Assembly: GCA_944385395.1 (NCBI GenBank)
Contig: CALWXA010000063.1
Location: 1-47,421, forward strand
DNA from: an uncultured Oscillospiraceae bacterium
GTDB taxonomy: Bacteria > Bacillota > Clostridia > Oscillospirales > Oscillospiraceae
Length of the DNA: 47,421 nt
Reading direction: 5' to 3'
A model generated the notes under the pieces. That model saw only the letters and a list, made by a program, of their open reading frames with translations, did not search any database and was not told where the DNA came from. This document shows, one piece after another, positions 7,103-24,138 of the stretch (positions within the stretch are counted from its first letter, which is position 1; every line of letters begins with the position of its first letter). Both the position numbers and the translations under genes were made by a program.

Positions 7103-7179
7103 GGCGGCGTAGCTCAGTTGGCTAGAGCATGCGGTTCATACCCGCAGTGTCACCGGTTCAAATCCAGTCGCCGCTACCA
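7103..7179 (+). tRNA. tRNA-Met (anticodon CAT), elongator type
   Basis: 77 nt including encoded CCA. Acceptor stem 7103-7109 pairs with 7169-7175; the anticodon loop is 7135-7141 with CAT at 7137-7139; the T arm contains GGTTCAAATCC. The paired acceptor end and the lack of three G:C pairs in the anticodon stem argue for elongator rather than initiator. A tRNA-Ile modified at C34 (lysidine) cannot be excluded from sequence alone. Confidence 0.93.
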
Positions 7180-7182
7180 TCT

Positions 7183-7208
7183 CCGGTGAGATGGATCCAT
7201 CTCACCGG
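7183..7208. repeat. Perfect 26-bp palindrome in the tRNA-Met/tRNA-Glu spacer
   Basis: CCGGTGAGATGGA (7183-7195) immediately followed by its exact reverse complement TCCATCTCACCGG (7196-7208). In RNA it would form a stem of at least 11 bp with a tiny loop between two tRNAs. No T-run follows, so it is not a terminator. A processing signal or a remnant of a mobile repeat are both possible. Confidence 0.85.
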
Positions 7209-7232
7209 TACCCCTTGGGGATCAACATCTAC

Positions 7233-7307
7233 GGCCCGTTGGTCAAGTGGTTAAGACACGGCCCTTTCACGGCTGTAACATGGGTTCGAGTCCCGTACGG
7301 GTCACCA
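7233..7307 (+). tRNA. tRNA-Glu (anticodon TTC)
   Basis: 75 nt with encoded CCA. Acceptor 7233-7239 pairs with 7297-7303; the anticodon loop is 7264-7270 with TTC at 7266-7268; T arm GGGTTCGAGTCCC. Middle gene of the three-tRNA transcript. Confidence 0.95.
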
Positions 7308-7310
7308 TTT

Positions 7311-7387
7311 GGAGGCTTAGCTCAGCTGGTTAGAGCGCCTGCTTCACACGCAGGAGGTCACTGGTCCGAGTCCAGCAGTCTCCACCA
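7311..7387 (+). tRNA. tRNA-Val (anticodon CAC)
   Basis: 77 nt with encoded CCA. Acceptor 7311-7317 pairs with 7377-7383; anticodon stem CCTGC/GCAGG encloses the loop 7343-7349 with CAC at 7345-7347. It reads GTG codons, which the GC-rich genes here use heavily. Separated from tRNA-Glu by only three bases. Confidence 0.95.
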
Positions 7388-14578: not shown

Positions 14579-16240
14579 TCATTCCAGCACGGCGCCCCGG
14601 TCGGCAGAGGATACCATCCGGGCATACCGGGCCAGATACCCGGTCTTGATCCGGGGCTCCGGACATACCCAGGTACTGCGCCGGCGCTGCAGCTCCTCAT
14701 CGGATACCTGCAGCGTGATGGTGTGACCGGGGATGTCGATGGCGATGAGATCCCCCTCCTGTACCAGGCCGATGGGGCCGCCGGAAGCAGCCTCCGGGGA
14801 TACATGGCCGATGGATGCCCCCCGGGTGGCGCCGGAAAAGCGTCCGTCGGTGATGAGAGCCACATCCTTGTCCAGACCCATACCGGCGATGGCGGAGGTG
14901 GGGTTGAGCATCTCCCGCATACCGGGACCGCCCTTGGGCCCTTCATAGCGGATCACCACCACATCGCCGGCCACGATCTTACCGGCGTAGATGGCGGCAA
15001 TGGCGTCATCCTCGCAGTCAAAGACCCGGGCCGGGCCGGTGTGATGCATCATCTCCGGGGCCACGGCAGACTGTTTCACCACGCAGCCGTCGGGAGCCAG
15101 ATTGCCCTTGAGCACGGCGATGCCTCCGGTGGCGCTGAAGGGCCGGTCCACCGGCCGGATCACCTCTTCGTTGCGGTTCACCGCACCGGCCAGGTTTTCA
15201 TGCATGGTCTTTCCGGTGACGGTGAGGACGCTGCCGTCCAGCAACCCCGCCTCCTCCAGCTCCGCCATGACGGCGTACACACCGCCGGCGGCGTCCAGAT
15301 CCTCCATGTAGGTGCTCCCGGCAGGGGCCAGGTGGCAGAGGTTGGGGGTCTTTTCGCTGATTTCGTTGGCCATGTCGAAGTCCAGCCGGATGCCGCACTC
15401 ATGGGCGATGGCCGGCAGATGCAGCATGGTGTTGGTGGAGCAGCCCAGAGCCATATCCACAGTCTCGGCGTTGTGGAACGCCGCCGGGGTCATGATATCC
15501 CGGGGCCGGATGTTGTTCTTCACCAGCTCTATGATCTGCATGCCTGCGTGCTTGGCCAGCCGCAGCCGGGCGGAATACACGGCAGGGATGGTGCCGTTGC
15601 CCCGGAGGGCCATGCCGATGGCCTCGGTAAGGCAGTTCATGGAGTTGGCGGTGTACATGCCGGAGCAGGAGCCGCAGGTGGGGCAGGCATTCTGCTCGTA
15701 GTCCTCCAGACCGGCGTCGTCCAGCTTGCCGGCATAGTGGGCACCCACGGCCTCGAACATATGGCTCAGGCAGGTGCGGCGTCCGTCGCTGAGGCGACCG
15801 GCCAGCATGGGGCCGCCGGAGACGAAGATGGTGGGGATGTTCACCCGGGCCGCCGCCATCAGGAGGCCGGGTACATTCTTGTCGCAGTTGGGGATCATCA
15901 CCAGACCGTCGAACTGATGGGCCATGGCCATAGCCTCAGTGGAGTCGGCGATGATGTCCCGGGTCACCAGGGAATATTTCATTCCCACATGGCCCATGGC
16001 GATGCCGTCGCACACAGCGATGGCAGGGAACTCCACCGGTGTGCCGCCGGCGGCACGGATGCCGTCCTTGACGGCCTGGGCGATCTTGTCCAGATTCATA
16101 TGGCCCGGCACGATCTCGTTATACGAGCTGACCACGCCGATGAGAGGCCGCTGCAGCTCCTCCTTGGTGTAGCCCAGGGCATAGAGCAGCGAGCGGTTGG
16201 GTGCAGCAGGCACGCCGGTGGTGATTACGTCGCTTCGCAT
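14579..16240 (-). CDS. ilvD: Dihydroxy-acid dehydratase
   Basis: 553 aa, full family length. Dehydrates 2,3-dihydroxy-isovalerate and -methylvalerate to the 2-oxoacids, the third common step of Val/Ile synthesis. Fe-S ligands are visible in NCDKNVPG and [19 protein letters not shown], and the C-terminal GRFSGATRG is the conserved ILVD_EDD motif. ATG 16240 follows AAGGGAGGTGCTTCC; the in-frame ATG 16261 would place that ribosome site inside the gene. 24 bases after ilvC. Confidence 0.96.
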
Positions 16241-16264
16241 GGAAGCACCTCCCTTGTTCATCCG

Positions 16265-17284
16265 TTAGTTGGAGGCGGTATCCGGATCCACGTCGGCGCC
16301 CCAGAGCATATTCTTGCGCAGCTCGGCACCCACCACTTCCATGGGATGCTTGGCCAGCTGGGCACGCTTGGCGTTGAAGAAGGTACGGCCGTTCTTGTTC
16401 TCGGCGATCCACTTGCCGGCAAACACGCCGTCCTGGATATCTGCCAGCACCGCCTTCATGTTCTTCTTGGTCTCCTCATAGGGCAGGATCCGACTGCCGG
16501 AGACGTATTCACCGTACTCGGCGGTGTCGGAGATGGAGTAGTTCATCATGGCCACGCCGCCCTTGTTGATGAGGTCGATGATGAGCTTCATCTCGTGGAT
16601 GCACTCGAAGTAAGCGTTCTCAGGGGCATAACCGGCTTCCACCAGGGTCTCGAAGCCCAGCTTCATCAGCTCCACCACGCCGCCGCACAGCACGGCCTGC
16701 TCGCCGAAGAGGTCGGTCTCCGTCTCATCCTGGAAGGTGGTTTCCATGACGCCGCCACGGGCGCCGCCGATACCGGCAGCATAGGCCAGACCGATGTCAT
16801 AGGCCTTGCCGGTGGCGTTCTGCTCCACGGCGATGAGGCAGGGCACGCCCTTGCCGGCCACATACTGGGACCGCACGGTGTGCCCGGGGCCCTTGGGGGC
16901 GATCATCAGCACGTCCACGTCGGCAGGAGGCACGATCTGCTTGAAGTGAATGTTGAAGCCATGGGCAAACATCAGGGCGTTGCCGGTCTCCAGATTGGGG
17001 GCGATGTCCTTCTTATATACCTCGGCCTGGGTCTCATCGTTGATGAGGATCATCACGATGTCGGCCCACTTGGCGGTCTCAGCCACAGTGGCCACCTTCA
17101 GACCGGCCTTCAGGACGTTGTCCCAGTTCTTACTGCCGGCCCGGAGGCCCACGCAGACGTCACAGCCGGAGTCCTTCAGATTCAGCGCATGGGCGTGGCC
17201 CTGAGAGCCGTAGCCGATGATGCCGATCTTCTTGCCGTCCAGCTTGCCCAGATCGCAGTCCTTCTCATAATACATTCTTGCCAT
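16265..17284 (-). CDS. ilvC: Ketol-acid reductoisomerase (class I, short form)
   Basis: 339 aa. Isomerises and reduces acetolactate or acetohydroxybutyrate, second step of Val/Ile synthesis. NADPH-binding Rossmann motif GYGSQG (24-29); catalytic acidic residues lie in the C-terminal helical knot, for example [17 protein letters not shown] and [14 protein letters not shown] 17284 follows GGGAGGAATACGACT. The start lies 20 bases inside the preceding ilvN-type gene, indicating tight coupling. Confidence 0.97.
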
Positions 17285-17831
17285 AGTCGTATTCCTCCCG
17301 TAATTTATTGATATCGTAAATGGTATGGCTTCCTCGTTCGATGGCAATGGTGCCGGTTTTGGCGATCTCCATGATGCCGAAATCCTCCAGCATCCGGATG
17401 AGTGCCTTCACCTTGGCAGGGTTGCCGAAAGTGTAAATGGTGAGCGCTTCCTTGTCCACGTCGATGACCTTGGCGTGGAAGATGTTCACCAGCTGGATCA
17501 CCTCGTCCCGTTCCTCCCGGCGGGCGGCCCGGACCTTGACGAAGGCGTTTTCCTGACGGATGCAGGTCTCCTCGTCCAGGATCTTCACCGCCTGCACCGG
17601 AAGCAGCTTGCGGCACTGTGCGGCGATCTGATCGATCATCAGCTCATCGCCCAGGATCTCGATGGAGATACGGGTGATGCCGGGCCGGTCGGTGGCACCG
17701 GAGACGATGGACTCAATGTTGTAGCCCTTCCGGGAAAAAAGCCGGGCCACCTGGCTGAGCACGCCGGGGATATCCTCCACCAGGATGCACAGGGTGTAGA
17801 GCTTTCTTGTGGTATCAAATTCTTTTTTCAC
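17265..17831 (-). CDS. ilvN: Acetolactate synthase small (regulatory) subunit, second copy
   Basis: 188 aa. N-terminal ACT domain (residues about 10-85: [20 protein letters not shown], then [20 protein letters not shown]) and a C-terminal ALS_ss domain. It binds valine/isoleucine and activates the catalytic subunit. It is longer than the other small subunit (19579-20064) because of an N-terminal extension and a C-terminal tail ending [16 protein letters not shown] start 17831 with GGAGGCGAGCCT; the start overlaps the stop of the preceding catalytic subunit (GTGA). Confidence 0.9.
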
Positions 17832-19549
17832 AGGCTCGCCTCCTGTTCCGTCAGCAGGAATTTGGTGATGGGAGACCCGGCAGCCACCATGGGCCGCACC
17901 ATCTCATCCATGTCCAGCACGCAGTCGATGACGGCTCCGGTGCCGCAGGAGAGGGCCTGCCGGAAGGCCTCCTCCATCTCCTGACGGTTGGTGGCCCGAT
18001 AGCCGTGGAGCCCATAGGCCTCCGCCAGCTTCACGAAATCCGGCCCCCGGTCCAGAGTGGTTTCGGAGAAGCGCTTGCCGTAGATCAGGTTCTGCCACTG
18101 CCGGACCATGCCCAGAGTGCCGTTGTTGAAAACCACCGAGATCACCGGCAGCCCATAGTGCTCCACGGTGCACAGCTCATGGCAGTTCATCCGGAAGCAG
18201 CCGTCGCCGGTGATGTGGATCACCCGCTTGTCGGGGTTGCCCATCTGAGCTCCCAGGGCAGCGCCCAGGCCGAAGCCCATGGTGCCGAATCCGCCGCTGG
18301 TAAGCAGCTGGCCGGGATAGCTGAAGTGGAGATACTTGATGGCCCACATCTGATGCTGGCCCACGTCGGTGGCCACGATGGCATCCTGGGGTGCCTGGAG
18401 CCGGATCACCTCCAGCACCTGCTGGGGGGTGAGCTTCTCACTGTCCTCTGCCACCGAGGGAGCCCGCAGGGGCAGGATCCGTTCCTTCCATTCCGGATGC
18501 TGGTACTGGGGCAGCTTCTCATTGAGCATCTCCAATACCTGCCGGGCCGAGCCGATGATGTGGTGGTCGGTGAGGATGTTCTTGTCGATCTCCGCCCGGT
18601 CGATGTCGATCTGTACGATCTTGGCCTGCTTGGCGAAGGTTTTGGGGTCCAACGCCACCCGGTCGGAGAACCGGCAGCCCACGGCGATGAGGAGATCACA
18701 CTCATCGCAGGCCACGTTGGAGGCCTGGGAGCCGTGCATGCCGATCATGCCGGTGGTGAGGAGATGGCTGCCGGGGAATCCGCCGCCGCCCATGACGGTG
18801 ATGGCCACCGGGGCGTCCATCCGCTCAGCGAAGGTGCGGAACTGCTGATCCGCCTTGCCTCGGACCACGCCGCCGCCGCAGATGAGAAGCGGCCGCTGGG
18901 ACTGTGCGATCATCTCCAGCAGGGTGTCGATATCCTGCCGGTCCACCTCCGGTTCCTTGAGCTGATGGCTTGCATTGATGTGGCGGATGCTCTCACACTG
19001 GCGGTTCTCCCGCCAGGGGATGAAGGTATAGTCCACCATCTCCGTAGGAGCGGTGACATTTTTCAGAAAGTCGATGAGCACCGGGCCGGGCCGTCCGCTG
19101 GCAGCCACGGCAAAGGCCTGACGCATCACGTCGGGGATGGTCTGGGCGTCCCGGACCAGGAAGGCCGCCTTGGTGATGGGCATGGCGATGCCGGTGGAGT
19201 CCACCTCCTGAAAAGCATCCTTGCCCAGCAGGCTCTCCCCTACATTGCAGGTGATGAACACCACCGGCGAGGAGTCCAGATACGCCGTGGCGATGCCGGT
19301 GGTGAGGTTGGTGGCCCCGGGTCCGGAGGTGGCGAAGCACACGCCCACCTTGCCGGTGGAACGGGCATAGCCGTCGGCGGCGTGGGCCGCCCCCTGCTCA
19401 TGGGCGGTGAGCACATGGCGGATCTTCCCCTGATAGCGGTAGAGCTCATCATATACGTTGAGGATGGTGCCGCCGGGATACCCGAATACGGTGTCCACCT
19501 CCTGCTCCAGCAGGCACTCCATAATGGCCTGGGTAGCTGGGATCTTCAA
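17828..19549 (-). CDS. ilvB: Acetolactate synthase, catalytic subunit (canonical copy)
   Basis: 573 aa. TPP/FAD-dependent condensation of two pyruvates, or pyruvate plus 2-oxobutyrate. All three TPP-family domains are present: N-terminal VFGYPGGTILNVYDEL with the catalytic glutamate E51 in AHEQGAAHAADGYAR, the central FAD-type domain, and C-terminal GDGCFRMNCHEL with NNGTLGMVRQWQ. These are standard for biosynthetic AHAS. The start is a TTG (19549) because the only ATG/GTG codons near the GGGAGG ribosome site run straight into stops. Paired with the small subunit just downstream. Confidence 0.93.
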   Translation of the reverse strand: MKIPATQAIMECLLEQEVDTVFGYPGGTILNVYDELYRYQGKIRHVLTAHEQGAAHAADGYARSTGKVGVCFATSGPGATNLTTGIATAYLDSSPVVFITCNVGESLLGKDAFQEVDSTGIAMPITKAAFLVRDAQTIPDVMRQAFAVAASGRPGPVLIDFLKNVTAPTEMVDYTFIPWRENRQCESIRHINASHQLKEPEVDRQDIDTLLEMIAQSQRPLLICGGGVVRGKADQQFRTFAERMDAPVAITVMGGGGFPGSHLLTTGMIGMHGSQASNVACDECDLLIAVGCRFSDRVALDPKTFAKQAKIVQIDIDRAEIDKNILTDHHIIGSARQVLEMLNEKLPQYQHPEWKERILPLRAPSVAEDSEKLTPQQVLEVIRLQAPQDAIVATDVGQHQMWAIKYLHFSYPGQLLTSGGFGTMGFGLGAALGAQMGNPDKRVIHITGDGCFRMNCHELCTVEHYGLPVISVVFNNGTLGMVRQWQNLIYGKRFSETTLDRGPDFVKLAEAYGLHGYRATNRQEMEEAFRQALSCGTGAVIDCVLDMDEMVRPMVAAGSPITKFLLTEQEASL

Positions 19550-19578
19550 ATCACATTCCTCCCTTATATCCGAAACCT

Positions 19579-20064
19579 TTACATTTTCCCCGAACCCTTC
19601 TGCAGGGCGATGATGCCGGTGCGGGCCACTTCCAGAATGTGGAAGGGCCGCAGCATCCCTTCAAAGTCGTCCACCCGGACGGGTGTATCGGCGATCTCCA
19701 TGGTCATGGTGGTGGGGGTGACATCCAGCACCCTGGCGCCCATGATCTGGCAGATGGTCATGATGTTCTCCCGGGTACGGGCGTTGGCGCTGACCTTAAT
19801 GAGCATCAGCTCCCATCCGATCATGCTGTGTTCGTCCAGCGTCCGGACCTTGATGACCTCCACCAGCTTGTTGAGCTGTTTTTCCACCTGCTCCACCACG
19901 CTGTTGCCGCTGTCCACGATGATGGTGATCCGGGACAGGCTGGGGTAATCGGTGACGCCCACCGCCAGGGACTCGATGTTGAATGCCCGCCGGGAAAAGA
20001 GACTGGTGATGCGGTTGAGCACACCGGCCTGATTTTCCACCAGGACGGAAATGGTCTGTTTCAT
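19579..20064 (-). CDS. ilvH: Acetolactate synthase small (regulatory) subunit, first copy
   Basis: 161 aa, classic IlvH/IlvN length. ACT domain begins at once with MKQTISVLVENQAGVLNRIT and FSRRAFNIESLAVGVTD; the second half MLIKVSANARTRENIMTICQ matches the C-terminal ALS_ss domain. Ribosome site GGAGGAGAGACG before ATG 20064. It lies 13 bases after the divergent catalytic subunit and is presumably its partner. The ilvH symbol only separates it from the second copy. Confidence 0.9.
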   Translation of the reverse strand: MKQTISVLVENQAGVLNRITSLFSRRAFNIESLAVGVTDYPSLSRITIIVDSGNSVVEQVEKQLNKLVEVIKVRTLDEHSMIGWELMLIKVSANARTRENIMTICQIMGARVLDVTPTTMTMEIADTPVRVDDFEGMLRPFHILEVARTGIIALQKGSGKM

Positions 20065-20077
20065 CGTCTCTCCTCCT

Positions 20078-21709
20078 TTAATCCGTGGTCAGGCACTGGC
20101 TGCTGACGTCGGCGATAAGCAGGCAGCTGCCCTTGGCTGCCATCAGCCGGTCCAATGCCTCCTCCACCTGGTCTTCTTCGCTGACGTGGATGCTCTCCAC
20201 ACCGTAAGCCGCCGCCAGAGCGGCGAAATCCGGATCACCCTCCAGGTTGACACCGAAGGACCCGTGATAGGGCGGCTGGTTCTGGATCTGATGCACCAGA
20301 CCCAGCACACCGTTGCGCAGCAGCACGATCTTCAGATCCATGCCCTTGGCCCGGACGGTGGCCAGCTCGTTCATCATCATCTGGAAAGAGCCGTCACCGC
20401 AGATCACCACCGTCTGCCGCTCCGGCTGGGCGGTTTTCACGCCGATGGCCGCCGGCAGCGAATACCCCATGGTTCCCAGTCCGCCGCTGGTAAGCAGCCG
20501 CCCGCCGCCCAGGCGCAGATGCTTGCAGGCCCACAGCTGGTTCTGTCCCACATCCACACACACCGCCGCGTCCGGCGCTAGGCGCTGTCCCAGCAGCCGG
20601 AAGAGCCGGCCGGGAAATACGCTGCCGGTGCGCACGGGATAGGTACGGCTGAGCTCGGCACTGCGCTGCAGCCGCAGCGTCTCACGCCAGGTGCCGCAAT
20701 CCACGGTGATCTCCCGGTCCATCAGCTGTCCCAGCATCACACCCACGTCGCCCACCAGGGGCACGGTGGCCTGCATGTTCTTGCCGATCTCCGCCGGGTC
20801 CACATCCATGTGGATGGAGGGCAGCCGTTTCTGCAGCTCCTTGGGGGATACAATGGCACGGTCCGCCGCCCGGGTACCGATCATAATCAGCAGATCCGAG
20901 TTGGACAGTGCCTGGTTGGCACATACATTGCCGTGGGCTCCCACCATGCCCAGATTCAAAGGATGCTCCGTAGGCAGCAGGGACAGGCCCATCATGGTGG
21001 TCACCACCGGGATACCGGTCTTTTCCACAAATTCCCGGAGCCGCTGCTGTGCCCCGGCCAGGAACACGCCGCCGCCGGCACAGATCACCGGACGCTGGGC
21101 CTTGCAGATAGCGGCAGCCACGTGGTCCAGCTGCTTTTCGTTGCCCCGGACACTGGGGTTGTAGCCCCGGATATGTACCTCCTGGGGAAATTCCACATGG
21201 CGCACCACCTGCTCCTGAACGTCGATGGGGATGTCCAGCAGCACCGGCCCGGGCCGTCCGGTGGATGCGATGTGAAAGGCCTCCGCCAGGATCCGGGGCA
21301 GCTGGGCCGCATCCTTTACCAGGTAGCAGTGCTTGGTAAAGGGGGTCACAGCGCCGGTGATGTCCACTTCCTGAAAGATATCCCGGCCCAGCAGATGGCT
21401 GGGCACCTGGCCGGTGATGGCCACCAGCGGAATGGAGTCCATGTACGCCGTGGCGATGCCGGTGATGAGATTGGTGGCGCCGGGTCCGGAGGTGACCATA
21501 CAGACCCCTACCTTCCCGGTGACCCGGGCATATCCGGAGGCCATATGTCCGGCGTTCTGCTCCGTCCGCACCAGGGTATACCCGATCTGGGGGGCCGCCC
21601 GCAGAGCGTCCGCCGCCGGGCAGATGGTGGCGCCGGCATAGCCGAACACGTGCTCTACCTGCTGGCGCAGCAGCCCTTCCACCAGTATCTGCGCACCTGT
21701 CATTGCCAT
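20078..21709 (-). CDS. Acetolactate synthase-like TPP enzyme, catalytic subunit (divergent copy)
   Basis: 543 aa, about 30 shorter than the second copy. TPP features are intact: catalytic E50 in RTEQNAGHMASGYAR, TSGPGATNLITGIATAYMDSIP, and GDGSFQMMMNEL with a following RNG. It departs from canonical AHAS at several otherwise fixed places: GYPGG is GYAGA (24-28), HEQ is TEQ, and NNGxLGMVRQWQ is RNGVLGLVHQIQN, losing the Arg and Trp that line the substrate/FAD channel. Still, it is followed directly by an IlvH-type subunit, so acetolactate synthesis is the first guess; altered 2-oxoacid preference is possible. First gene behind the attenuator. Confidence 0.85.
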   Translation of the reverse strand: MAMTGAQILVEGLLRQQVEHVFGYAGATICPAADALRAAPQIGYTLVRTEQNAGHMASGYARVTGKVGVCMVTSGPGATNLITGIATAYMDSIPLVAITGQVPSHLLGRDIFQEVDITGAVTPFTKHCYLVKDAAQLPRILAEAFHIASTGRPGPVLLDIPIDVQEQVVRHVEFPQEVHIRGYNPSVRGNEKQLDHVAAAICKAQRPVICAGGGVFLAGAQQRLREFVEKTGIPVVTTMMGLSLLPTEHPLNLGMVGAHGNVCANQALSNSDLLIMIGTRAADRAIVSPKELQKRLPSIHMDVDPAEIGKNMQATVPLVGDVGVMLGQLMDREITVDCGTWRETLRLQRSAELSRTYPVRTGSVFPGRLFRLLGQRLAPDAAVCVDVGQNQLWACKHLRLGGGRLLTSGGLGTMGYSLPAAIGVKTAQPERQTVVICGDGSFQMMMNELATVRAKGMDLKIVLLRNGVLGLVHQIQNQPPYHGSFGVNLEGDPDFAALAAAYGVESIHVSEEDQVEEALDRLMAAKGSCLLIADVSSQCLTTD

Positions 21710-21737
21710 GTTGTTCCACGCTCCTTTTTCCTTGATA

Positions 21738-21775
21738 CAAAAAAGCCCGTGACCCCTTGTGTTGGGTCACGGGCT
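21738..21775 (-). terminator. Attenuator terminator in the ilv leader
   Basis: On the minus strand: 12-bp perfect stem AGCCCGTGACCC (21775-21764) / GGGTCACGGGCT (21755-21744) with an 8-base loop, followed by six T. It lies 41 bases after the leader-peptide stop and about 30 bases before the first ilv structural gene, so transcripts must read through it to express the operon. Confidence 0.88.
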
Positions 21776-21816
21776 GTTGGCGAATCGTCTTATGTACCGA
21801 ACCTGTTAGCTCCGGT

Positions 21817-21948
21817 TTATCGGACGGCTTCCGCTGCGCCAAGGGCATGACCAAACACACTATCCTTCTCCAGTACCAGAACTACCAGTACCAGGGACAG
21901 AATAATGTAGGACAGCAGAATGCTAATGGAAGCCATCATCGTAAACAT
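21817..21948 (-). CDS. Putative ilv operon leader peptide, Ile/Leu/Val-rich (43 aa)
   Basis: ATG 21948 is preceded by GGAGG with a 5-base gap; stop TAA 21817-21819. Of residues 8-26, 15 of 19 are Ile, Leu or Val (for example IIL-S-LVLVVLVL, residues 15-26), followed by EKD and a more ordinary tail FGHALGAAEAVR. It lies between the ilv promoter and a strong terminator, exactly where a translation-coupled attenuation peptide belongs. Codons 32-34 (TTT GGT CAT) can pair with the 5' arm of that terminator. Alternative: a small single-span membrane protein, since the same stretch is hydrophobic enough for one helix. Confidence 0.72.
   Translation of the reverse strand: MFTMMASISILLSYIILSLVLVVLVLEKDSVFGHALGAAEAVR
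21846..21855 (-). promoter_or_regulatory. Candidate anti-terminator strand within the ilv leader
   Basis: On the minus strand GGTCATG (21852-21846) pairs with CGTGACC (21771-21765) of the terminator 5' arm: seven pairs, one of them G-U. Two more A-U pairs are possible beyond one mismatch. It lies six to eight codons after the Ile/Leu/Val run, so a ribosome stalled in the run would leave it free. Inference from pairing alone. Confidence 0.5.
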
Positions 21949-22022
21949 AGGATCCTCCATGGTCTGCATGGCAGGGAGTTTCCCCCGCAGGGTCAGCGGC
22001 GGCTGTGTTGCCGTCTGACTGC

Positions 22023-22051
22023 ATTATACATACCTGTGCTACAAATCGCAA
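22023..22051 (-). promoter_or_regulatory. Promoter of the ilv operon
   Basis: Minus strand: TTGCGA (22046-22051), 17-base spacer, TATAAT (22023-22028). Expected start near 22016, giving a leader of about 305 bases before the first structural gene. Confidence 0.75.
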
Positions 22052-22262
22052 TATAAAGATTTCTTATCGCCCTTATTTTGGCAATTCTGCATAATTTGTG
22101 CCGCCGTATTTTTATTCTTATTGCCGTCACCATCACTTTATATGCGTTATATCGTATTTATGGGTGTTCAAGCGTTCGTTTTTGTGTCGCTTCAAGAAAC
22201 TTCCCTGTTCTTTTTCTCCCGTGAGTGAAATTTTTCGCGTTTCCCACCGAAAAAAATTGTGC
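22052..22262. other. AT-rich divergent intergenic region between ilv and leu promoters
   Basis: No gene visible. Clearly richer in A+T than its surroundings. It contains one copy of a 13-base sequence (22186-22198) that recurs in the T-box stem I (22334-22346). Confidence 0.5.
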
Positions 22263-22291
22263 TTGACAACGGCCGCCATTTCCTGTATTGT
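22263..22291 (+). promoter_or_regulatory. Promoter of the leu operon
   Basis: Consensus TTGACA (22263-22268), 17-base spacer, TATTGT (22286-22291); transcription would enter the T-box leader at about 22298. Confidence 0.8.
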
Positions 22292-22297
22292 TAGGCC

Positions 22298-22592
22298 AAC
22301 AGCAAATGGAACACATACGATGACAGGGAGAAAGTCGCTTCAAGAAGCTGCAGAGAGCTGCCGGACGGTGCAAGGCAGTGCGGGCGGGAGCAGACGTCAC
22401 TGGCCCTGGAGTATCCTGGCTGAGATCCTTTTGGGATTTAGGTCAGGACGGGTTTCCTCACCGTTACCAGCGAGGCATCATTCACCCGGTGTCGGGCCGA
22501 TGATGAGAGGGGGCATCACAAGATGCCAACAAGAGTGGTACCGCGGAAGTGAACCTTTCGTCTCTTAGGAAAGAGACGGAAGGTTTTTTTAT
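22298..22592 (+). ncRNA. T-box riboswitch leader of the leu operon
   Basis: Untranslated leader of about 295 nt with the T-box core AACAAGAGTGGTACCGCG (22529-22546), which forms the anti-terminator contacting the tRNA CCA end. Stem I shows the AGAGAG motif (22352-22357) and a distal hairpin CTGCC/GGCAG enclosing GGTGCAA. CAGGG (22324-22328) can pair with CCCTG (22404-22408) as the basal stem. By position, GTC at 22396-22398, in the context GAC-GTC-AC, is the best specifier candidate, i.e. a valine codon; this is tentative because I aligned it by eye. Uncharged tRNA should favour read-through into leuACDB. Confidence 0.88.
22552..22590 (+). terminator. T-box-controlled terminator
   Basis: 15-bp stem (22552-22566 / 22571-22585), one mismatch, AGGA loop, then a T7 run. 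It is mutually exclusive with the T-box anti-terminator. Confidence 0.88.
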
Positions 22593-22626
22593 TTTGGAAC
22601 GAGATCATCTGGCAGGAGGACAACAC

Positions 22627-24138
22627 ATGAAGCGCATCAAGATTTTTGACACCACCCTCAGAGACGGCGAGCAGTCCCCGGGCTGCAGCATGAACCTGAA
22701 AGAGAAGATCGAAATGGCCCGCCAGCTGGAAAAGCTGGGTGTGGATATCATCGAGGCGGGCTTCGCCATCGCCTCTCCTATGGATCATAAGAGCGTGAAA
22801 GCCATCGCCGAAGCGGTGGAGCAGTGCACGGTAGCCAGCCTGGCCCGGTGCGTCAAGGGCGATATCGACGCCGCCTGGGACGCCGTGAAGGAAGCCAAGC
22901 ACCCCCGGATCCATGTGTTCCTGGCCACCAGCGATATCCATATGGAATATAAGCTGCAGATGACCCGTGAGCAGGTGCTCTCCCGCATCACCGAGATGGT
23001 GGGCTACGCCAAGAGCCTTTGCACCGACATTGAATTCTCCGCCGAGGATGCTTCCCGCTCCGAGTGGGAGTTCCTGGCCCGGTGCTATTCCAACGCCATC
23101 GCCGCCGGCGCCACCACCATCAACGTGCCGGATACCGTGGGTTACGCCACGCCTCAGGAGATGGCGGATCTGATCACGTACCTCAAGGAGCACGTAGAGG
23201 GCATCGACGGCGTGGATATCTCCGTCCACTGCCACAATGACCTGGGCATGGCGGTAGCCAACTCCCTGGCCAGCATCGGCGCCGGTGCCACCCAGATCGA
23301 ATGCACCGTCAACGGCATCGGCGAGCGGGCAGGCAACGCCAGTCTGGAAGAGGTGGTGATGGCCCTGCATACCCGCCGGGACTTCTATCAGGCGGAAACG
23401 GGCATCAATACCCGTCAGATCTACCGCTCCAGCAAGCTTTTGAGCAACATCACCGGCGTGGCCATTCCCCCCAGCAAGGCCATCGTAGGCGCCAACGCCT
23501 TCGCCCATGAGTCCGGCATCCATCAGCACGGCGTTATCGCCAATGCCCAGACCTATGAGATCATGAACAGCGCCGATGTGGGCATCCCCCAGAACACCAT
23601 GGTGCTGGGCAAGCACTCCGGCAAGCACGCCCTGCGGGAAAAGCTGGTGTCCATGGGCTACGAGCTCACAGATGAAGAACTGGAGCAGGTGTTCGTCCGG
23701 TTCAAGGCCTTCGCCGATAAGAAAAAGAACATCACCGGCAGCGATGTCGAGGCTCTGGTGCTCCACCGCCACAACCAGTTCATCGGCCAGTGCCAGCTGG
23801 CCAGCCACGTGGTGAACGCCGGTCACGGGGTGCCCAACACCTCCTACATCCGGCTGCAGCGGGGCGATGAGATCCTGGAGGATGTGGCCATCGGCACCGG
23901 TCCCCTGGATGCCTCTTTCAAGGCCATCAACCGGATGCTGGGCATGGACATCAAGCTGGAGAGCTTCAGCCTCAACGCCGTTACCGACGGCGAGGACGCC
24001 GTGGGCGAGGCCATCGTCAAGCTCATCGGCAGCGACGGCCGCAGCTATACCGGCACCGGCCTTTCCACGGATATCATCGAGTCGTCCATCCGTGCTTACG
24101 TCAACGGCATCAATAAAATGACCGACAGTGCAGAATAA
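22627..24138 (+). CDS. leuA: 2-isopropylmalate synthase
   Basis: 503 aa. Condenses acetyl-CoA with 2-ketoisovalerate, first committed step to leucine. The DRE-TIM motif [13 protein letters not shown] (7-19) opens the barrel. Metal ligands are H201 and H203 in SVHCHNDLG, and [16 protein letters not shown] follows. The C-terminal LeuA dimer regulatory domain (about residue 370 onward) is present, so leucine feedback is expected. ATG 22627 follows GGCAGGAGGACAACAC; upstream in-frame starts lie in the T-box terminator. It could also be a homocitrate/citramalate synthase paralogue, but the leuCDB neighbours argue for LeuA. Confidence 0.95.

Follow-up and report, generated by a model that had tools for sequence, protein, structure and literature searches.

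A very probable ribosome-mediated attenuator, supported by covariation, upstream of an ilv operon in an uncultured Oscillospiraceae bacterium, and its relatives in Clostridia

Introduction

The question raised by this locus is what controls an ilv operon of an uncultured Oscillospiraceae bacterium when the leader of that operon has no match to a T-box. The operon lies on a 47,421-nucleotide stretch of DNA (contig CALWXA010000063.1 of assembly GCA_944385395.1), and we refer to this whole stretch as the window. T-boxes, which read uncharged tRNA directly and without translation, are the expected control of these genes in Clostridia. An earlier note on this DNA read the leader as a translation-coupled attenuator, and described such logic as standard in enteric bacteria and actinobacteria, with Firmicutes mostly using T-boxes for these genes. 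The generalization holds in part: ilv attenuators have already been shown in one Firmicute, Listeria, and proposed in another, Staphylococcus aureus.

Ribosome-mediated attenuation of branched-chain amino acid (BCAA) genes has long been known in enteric bacteria (PMC1183508). Histidine attenuators are predicted in some Firmicutes, including Clostridioides (PMC9413887), and attenuators are predicted in Lactococcus and Streptococcus (PMC5794164). None of the literature matches listed, a set with preprints and most subscription papers outside its scope, dealt with attenuation of BCAA genes in Clostridia, Oscillospirales included.

Results

Organization of the ilv control region

The control region and leader of the ilv operon occupy 22051-21709 on the minus strand of the window, where a promoter-like site is followed by the leader, a terminator and the operon. 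The first gene controlled is ilvB1, encoding the acetolactate synthase large subunit (21709-20078, minus strand; TIGR00118 above cut-off), and the remaining genes, named by family models, are ilvN1, ilvB2, ilvN2, ilvC and ilvD (20064-14579, minus strand). Two acetolactate synthase pairs, ilvB1-N1 and ilvB2-N2, thus stand in tandem within a single operon (14579-21709). The opposite-strand genes are leuA, leuC, leuD and leuB, identified by gene family models. As the earlier note had stated, this divergent leuACDB operon has a T-box leader (22311-22568, plus strand; Rfam, 96.6 bits, cut-off 93). It was the only T-box in the window at gathering score, with none in the ilvB leader. Three tRNA genes are clustered at 7103-7384 of the window.

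The promoter, ribosome site and 43-codon open reading frame that had been proposed are all present in the sequence, the promoter by consensus only. The promoter-like site is TTGCGA-17-TATAAT at 22051-22023 (minus strand). It is weak alone, because there were three such sites in 21600-22700 compared to 0.7 expected by shuffling. When we required TATAAT together with a -35 element matching at 4/6, only 4 of 25 leader loci qualified, and we therefore make no claim that the promoter is conserved. By direct reading, a ribosome binding site, GGAGG (21958-21954, minus strand), lies 5 bases upstream of an ATG at 21948. This ATG opens the leader frame of 43 codons plus stop, MFTMMASISILLSYIILSLVLVVLVLEKDSVFGHALGAAEAVR (21948-21817, minus strand, with the stop at 21819-21817). 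Counted on the translation, 15 of the 19 residues 8-26 (21927-21871, minus strand) are Ile, Leu or Val, as had been noted, and we call this run the control codons.

Most homologous operons have either this leader or a T-box

A scan of named genomes for ilvB1 gave 158 relatives, and the best 80 loci of the 158 were kept. Leaders were detected with a script over up to 420 bases 5' of each ilvB1, after which the candidates were read. There was a homologous leader with a terminator in 24 of the 80 loci. In 48 of the 80 there was a T-box directly upstream of ilvB1 (Rfam RF00230; 19, 16 and 13 over three batches). Some close relatives have an unrelated, tRNA-sensing switch at the equivalent place. 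The other eight loci (L067, L070, L073, L084, L090, L099, L105 and L112) had neither device at that threshold. L084 may be cut, because it has merely 284 upstream bases. L070, counted as having neither, has a family-like terminator upstream of 3001 and no leader frame was found there, possibly a loss of the sensing part.

None of the 24 leader loci had a T-box on the ilvB1 strand at the Rfam gathering score; L047 and L048 had one on the opposite strand, as does the window. Of 86 loci compared with a covariance model of the leader core (R3, described below), six matched at E up to 0.5 (the window, L006, L007, L009, L011 and L012), and all 48 T-box loci were unmatched. The T-box and leader states on a tree of ilvB1 (83 rows, quick method) require at least two changes between them, and therefore one device has taken the place of the other at least once; in this tree 25 of the 80 inner branches are left open and those leading to the outgroup are very long.

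Within the window's genus, an ilvB1-like match was present in 2 of 32 genomes (its own and G006), and G010 and G028 matched at the ilvB2 level only. The other 28, many of them incomplete, had no match at E up to 1e-80. L009 and L012, both from this genus, have the attenuator together with an ilvB1 that is decayed or largely deleted, and the leader faces these remnants and ilvB2. L012 also has an opposite-strand T-box upstream, the same as the window.

Terminator and antiterminator share a strand

A 12-bp terminator with six T just before the first ilv gene had been claimed, and it is present. The stem pairs 21775-21764 with 21755-21744 around an 8-nt loop, followed by the six T (21744-21739); the whole element spans 21775-21739 on the minus strand. 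Its fold has a z-score of -5.09, and none of 200 shuffles was equally stable. Counts for the terminator and the antiterminator were made in an alignment of the 24 leaders and the window, aligned whole (25 rows). The terminator was paired in 94.8% of 325 cells, and double changes were found in 11 of 13 pairs. Its covariation score was 0.418, compared to 0.223 in shuffles, with 0 of 500 reaching it; the count of pair types did not beat the shuffles (250/500). All 37 family members compared, and all seven members of a later-read set, had a terminator between the reading frame and the first gene.

The antiterminator is a helix of 12 pairs with one mismatch, and the seven pairs that had been noted between codons 32-34 and the 5' arm of the terminator are present within it. 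Strand 2, GTGTTTGGTCATG (21858-21846, minus strand), lies inside the leader frame at codons 31-35, and pairs with strand 3, CGTGACCCAACAC (21771-21759, minus strand), which overlaps the 5' arm and loop of the terminator. The two helices compete for the same strand and are therefore mutually exclusive. Antiterminator pairing was found in 94.4% of 287 cells, compared to 25.3-43.5% in six slid registers. Nine cells had changed on both sides, compared to 3.2 in shuffles, and on three measures 0 of 500 shuffles did as well. Two other measures, pairs with double changes (167/500) and further pair types (217/500), did not beat the shuffles. The column pair 74-188 illustrates the pattern, with C-G in 11 rows, U-A in 7, G-C in 1, unpaired bases in 5 and a gap in 1. 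At column 181, which is common to both helices, the terminator pair was lost in 12 of 25 rows and the antiterminator pair was intact in every row, which is the pattern that selection for both states would produce.

A covarying hairpin is built from the control codons

There is a further element that the earlier note missed. A hairpin, H1, is formed from Ile/Leu/Val codons themselves: the 5' arm, CATTATTCT (21907-21899, minus strand), consists of Ile-Ile-Leu codons and pairs with AGGATAGTG (21866-21858, minus strand). In the 24 leaders and the window H1 was paired in 98.2% of 224 cells, and 2 to 9 of 500 shuffles were as high. Over 32 rows it was paired in 95.5% of 288 cells, four pairs had double changes, and 0 or 1 of 500 shuffles did as well on each measure. 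Alignment A4 leaves out the near-copy rows L039, L040, L044, L045 and L046. RNAalifold returned H1 and the terminator unprompted, and the predicted probability that H1 forms averaged 0.96 over the 37 members.

In trp-type attenuators a protector hairpin competes with the antiterminator, an arrangement that is not required for the class. H1 and strand 2 have just one base in common, and we therefore rejected H1 as a classical protector and find it better read as a pause hairpin. A protector role for the 5' flank of H1 was also rejected: its pairing with strand 2 beat shuffles in 6 of 44 cases at p<0.05, with a median p of 0.42.

RNA models identify a wider family

We searched genomes with covariance model R1, an 86-base core, and with two retrained models, R2 and R3. 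The genome of the window itself has a single copy by R1. With E up to 0.001, R1 had matches in 9 of 400 genomes of the family and 6 of 394 of the order, counts that include this genome and chance hits. R2 and R3 had matches in 11 of 295 order genomes and in 9 and 12 of 391 class genomes, again with chance hits. The number of genomes with real members was 8 of 400 in the family screen, 7 of 295 in the order screen with that many genomes, and 7 of 391 in the class screen with 12 matching genomes. Given these low counts, the family is either patchily distributed or under-detected by the models. Judged by genome codes, ten families of Clostridia, in more than one order, have members.

All eight whole-genome matches outside training with E<1e-4 stand before ilvB or leuA-type genes (L117, L122, L123, L125, L126, L127, L133 and L142). 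Twenty distinct places outside training had E>=1e-4; we judged seven to be real (L118, L119, L120, L135, L137, L145 and L149) and 13 to be chance. Because the downstream gene was used in judging them, these seven are not independent evidence for the gene association. The matches rejected as chance after reading were L121, L124, L128-L131, L134, L136, L138, L139, L146, L148, L150 and L151, and L147 and L150 are the same places as L136 and L139. Duplicates were set aside: L002 (contig of L033), L132 (other strand of L122), L114-L116 (loci L042, L063 and L050), L140, L141, L143 and L144; L007 is the genome place of L126.

The genes behind the members belong to BCAA synthesis. L117-L119, L122 and L123 stand before ilvB2-type genes, L125-L127 and L145 before ilvB, L120 before leuA, and L133, L137 and L142 before leuA-type genes. 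L149, a weak model match (E 0.006), is an attenuator before ilvE, the branched-chain aminotransferase gene. Family models gave the gene names for L117, L120, L126, L127, L133, L135, L137, L142, L145, L149 and L011; for L118, L119, L122, L123 and L125 they were taken from the start of the frame only. The genes at L133 and L137 are below the NCBIfam cut-offs for leuA, with HMGL and LeuA_dimer domains above those of Pfam. At L135 (1659-3080), a LeuA-like (HMGL) domain and an AMP-binding enzyme domain are in one frame behind an Ile/Leu/Val attenuator.

A conserved RNA core, and a T-box at the equivalent position in so many homologous loci, might suggest a ligand-binding riboswitch or the relic of a T-box in place of a ribosome sensor. 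We consider this very improbable. No Rfam family matched over the leader at gathering score in the window, the 24 leader loci or 19 further members, and at E up to 10 the best match over the window's leader was TEG147, over the terminator, with 23.4 bits compared to a cut-off of 56.1. Conserved structure is limited to a pair of simple hairpins plus an alternative helix. The segment that is conserved sits within a frame where Ile/Leu/Val codons abound, and BCAA genes follow the members that were read.

Complementarity persists while the sequence changes

The RNA models comprise H1 and strand 2 without the terminator, and thus a test of complementarity to strand 3 is independent of them. We compared the duplex of each member's own strands 2 and 3 with duplexes of swapped partners. 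In 18 of the 37 members, chosen as divergent, own partners averaged -12.3 and swapped partners -7.2 kcal/mol (0 of 20,000 permutations). Thirteen members came to light once the helix had already been formulated; for these the values were -14.1 and -9.6 kcal/mol (0/20,000), and own strand 3 ranked first to fifth of 13. Over 25 divergent members they were -14.6 and -8.7 kcal/mol (0/20,000). The strand sequences themselves are rewritten across families (GGUCAU, GAAAGUU, UUUGUCG and UUAAUGUU), and because own partners beat swapped ones we conclude that the antiterminator sequence has been rewritten while complementarity persists. There were two exceptions, L058 and L087, in which own strand 3 ranked 11th and 12th and at least 10 other members' strand 3 paired better. 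The antiterminator is shorter or shifted in L050, L058, L063, L064 and L087, and 8 of 12 pairs are left in L049.

The leader frame appears to be constrained as RNA

A leader frame with a run of Ile/Leu/Val codons was present in all 37 members. The main alternative is a small single-span membrane protein with a terminator nearby by chance; the earlier note also named a small membrane protein. The peptide is hydrophobic, and a conserved NSxFGHA stretch is in the leader frame in 22 of 25 leaders, both of which would fit such a protein. In the other three (L035, L040 and L045), however, the RNA motif is kept in another frame, and in two truncated cases it is kept although the frame stops before it (L137) or inside it (L058). 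These frame-shifted and early-stopped leaders are evidence against a conserved membrane protein. In addition, neither of the two leader peptides tried had a Pfam family at E up to 1, and the RNA helices covary. A membrane protein is, in our judgment, scarcely credible, and on these comparisons the NSxFGHA stretch is conserved as RNA. The comparisons suggested in the earlier note favoured the attenuator: leaders retain their Ile/Leu/Val codons, both competing helices show covariation, and from family to family the strands stay complementary.

Codon choice in the leaders is unlike that in the ilvB1 genes. GTA and GTT make up 74% of Val codons in 25 leaders compared to 10% in the corresponding ilvB1 genes, and ATT makes up 75% of Ile codons compared to 24%. 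In theory, some synonymous codons sense starvation better than others (PMC1183508). The GTA, GTT and ATT bias fits this theory and also the pairing constraints, and the two are indistinguishable here. If the codons are under both constraints, as they may be, the strength of the bias would be explained.

Predicted ribosome positions

A ribosome covers about 12-15 nt ahead of it. Measured from where the last control codon begins, strand 2 started 14-48 nt further on in every one of the 37 members (15 nt for codon 26 of the window), so that a ribosome stalled in the run is predicted to leave strand 2 wholly or mostly free. The geometry is consistent with what had been proposed. The companion proposal, that a ribosome moving on covers strand 2, holds in part: by a 15-nt rule a ribosome at the stop codon covers it in 9 of 37 members and does not in 28, the window among them. 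In trp-type attenuators the stop codon is placed so that the terminating ribosome masks strand 2. Here the stop codon is not fixed in place: in 25 ilvB1 leaders it comes 3-75 nt after strand 2 begins (median 54). Because it lies far past strand 2 in most, either passing and following ribosomes must mask this strand, or the untranslated leader reads through.

Ribosome-masked equilibrium folding of the 37 members gave mean antiterminator probabilities of 0.24 free, 0.41 and 0.31 stalled, and 0.20 at the stop, with medians of 0 to 0.09 and no consistent difference; these runs included untranscribed upstream DNA. With the upstream RNA removed, pairing of strands 2 and 3 averaged 0.95, compared to 0.58 for shuffled strand 2, and all 37 members were above their own shuffles. 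In predicted free RNA, before strand 3 is made, strand 2 pairs on average upstream (0.38), inside H1 (0.10) and with the tail (0.15). The alternative upstream pairing is not at a conserved place.

Discussion

The element in the window is very probably a ribosome-mediated transcription attenuator. We infer translation, stalling, pausing and a response to amino acids from its organization, as follows. RNA polymerase would transcribe the leader while a ribosome reads the 43-residue peptide. A shortage of charged Ile-, Leu- or Val-tRNA would stall the ribosome in codons 8-26. Strand 2 would then be free to pair with the emerging strand 3 (12 pairs), the terminator would be blocked, and the ilv operon would be transcribed. 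With an ample supply, ribosomes would traverse strand 2 and occupy it as strands 3 and 4 emerge, so that the terminator would fold and transcription would end. The likeliest role of H1, whose arms are the Ile-Ile-Leu codons and the stretch directly preceding strand 2, is to pause the polymerase until the ribosome arrives and melts the hairpin. The switch would most likely turn BCAA genes on upon ribosome stalling. That stalling instead acts after transcription, on ilvB translation or RNA stability, with the terminator a minor background stop, is most improbable: the predicted terminator is strong and covarying, a second conserved helix competes with its 5' arm, and strand 3 ends 50 nt upstream of the ilvB1 start.

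Comparison with known systems, by description, indicates that this is a new, covariation-supported version of known ribosome-mediated attenuation, with no Rfam match. One Firmicute case, tested by mutation, is Rli60, the attenuator of the Listeria monocytogenes ilv-leu operon (PMC5864092). It also has a leader peptide enriched in BCAA codons and an overlapping terminator and antiterminator. In contrast, its leader has 13 residues and its alternative structures lie downstream of the peptide; in the window's family the antiterminator strand is mostly inside a frame of 23-55 codons. In S. aureus, a leucine-rich attenuator peptide before ilvD has been proposed with genetic support (PMC5794164). 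There, too, a leader peptide, a terminator and a suggested antiterminator precede ilv-leu genes, but the peptide is dominated by Leu and the suggested antiterminator involves the U-tail of the terminator. The Corynebacterium ilvB-II motif and the C. glutamicum ilvBNC attenuator (PMC10272879, PMC11857589) share three hairpins (terminator, antiterminator and a further one, also credited with pausing) and BCAA codons. They differ in being actinobacterial and in a frame of usually 15-17 codons. The T-box (RF00230) has a known response to amino acid supply and precedes homologous ilvB1 genes, but is not matched in the window's ilvB1 leader.

A broader proposal is that there is a single attenuator family across Clostridia, before ilvB, leuA and ilvE, that has been swapped with T-boxes on homologous operons and reads through in its ribosome-free state. 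Taken as a whole, we regard this as doubtful. H1 and the antiterminator could stack end to end without a ribosome, because just one base is common to them, and in that case an untranslated leader would be ON, the opposite of what has been reported as super-attenuation for Rli60 of Listeria (PMC5864092). The predicted pairing of strand 2 elsewhere in free RNA counts against ribosome-free read-through. If the proposal is true, termination would be caused by a passing ribosome and not by the absence of one. Both the state of an untranslated leader, ON or OFF, and the antiterminator's position within the frame can be tested directly.

The leader codons may serve double duty, in amino acid sensing and in RNA pairing. 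With this finding, Clostridia would gain a family of ribosome-sensing switches that is defined and can be searched for. In these bacteria T-boxes are the expected control of such genes. Related lineages control homologous operons with two unrelated devices, and this provides a natural experiment on the replacement of one by the other.
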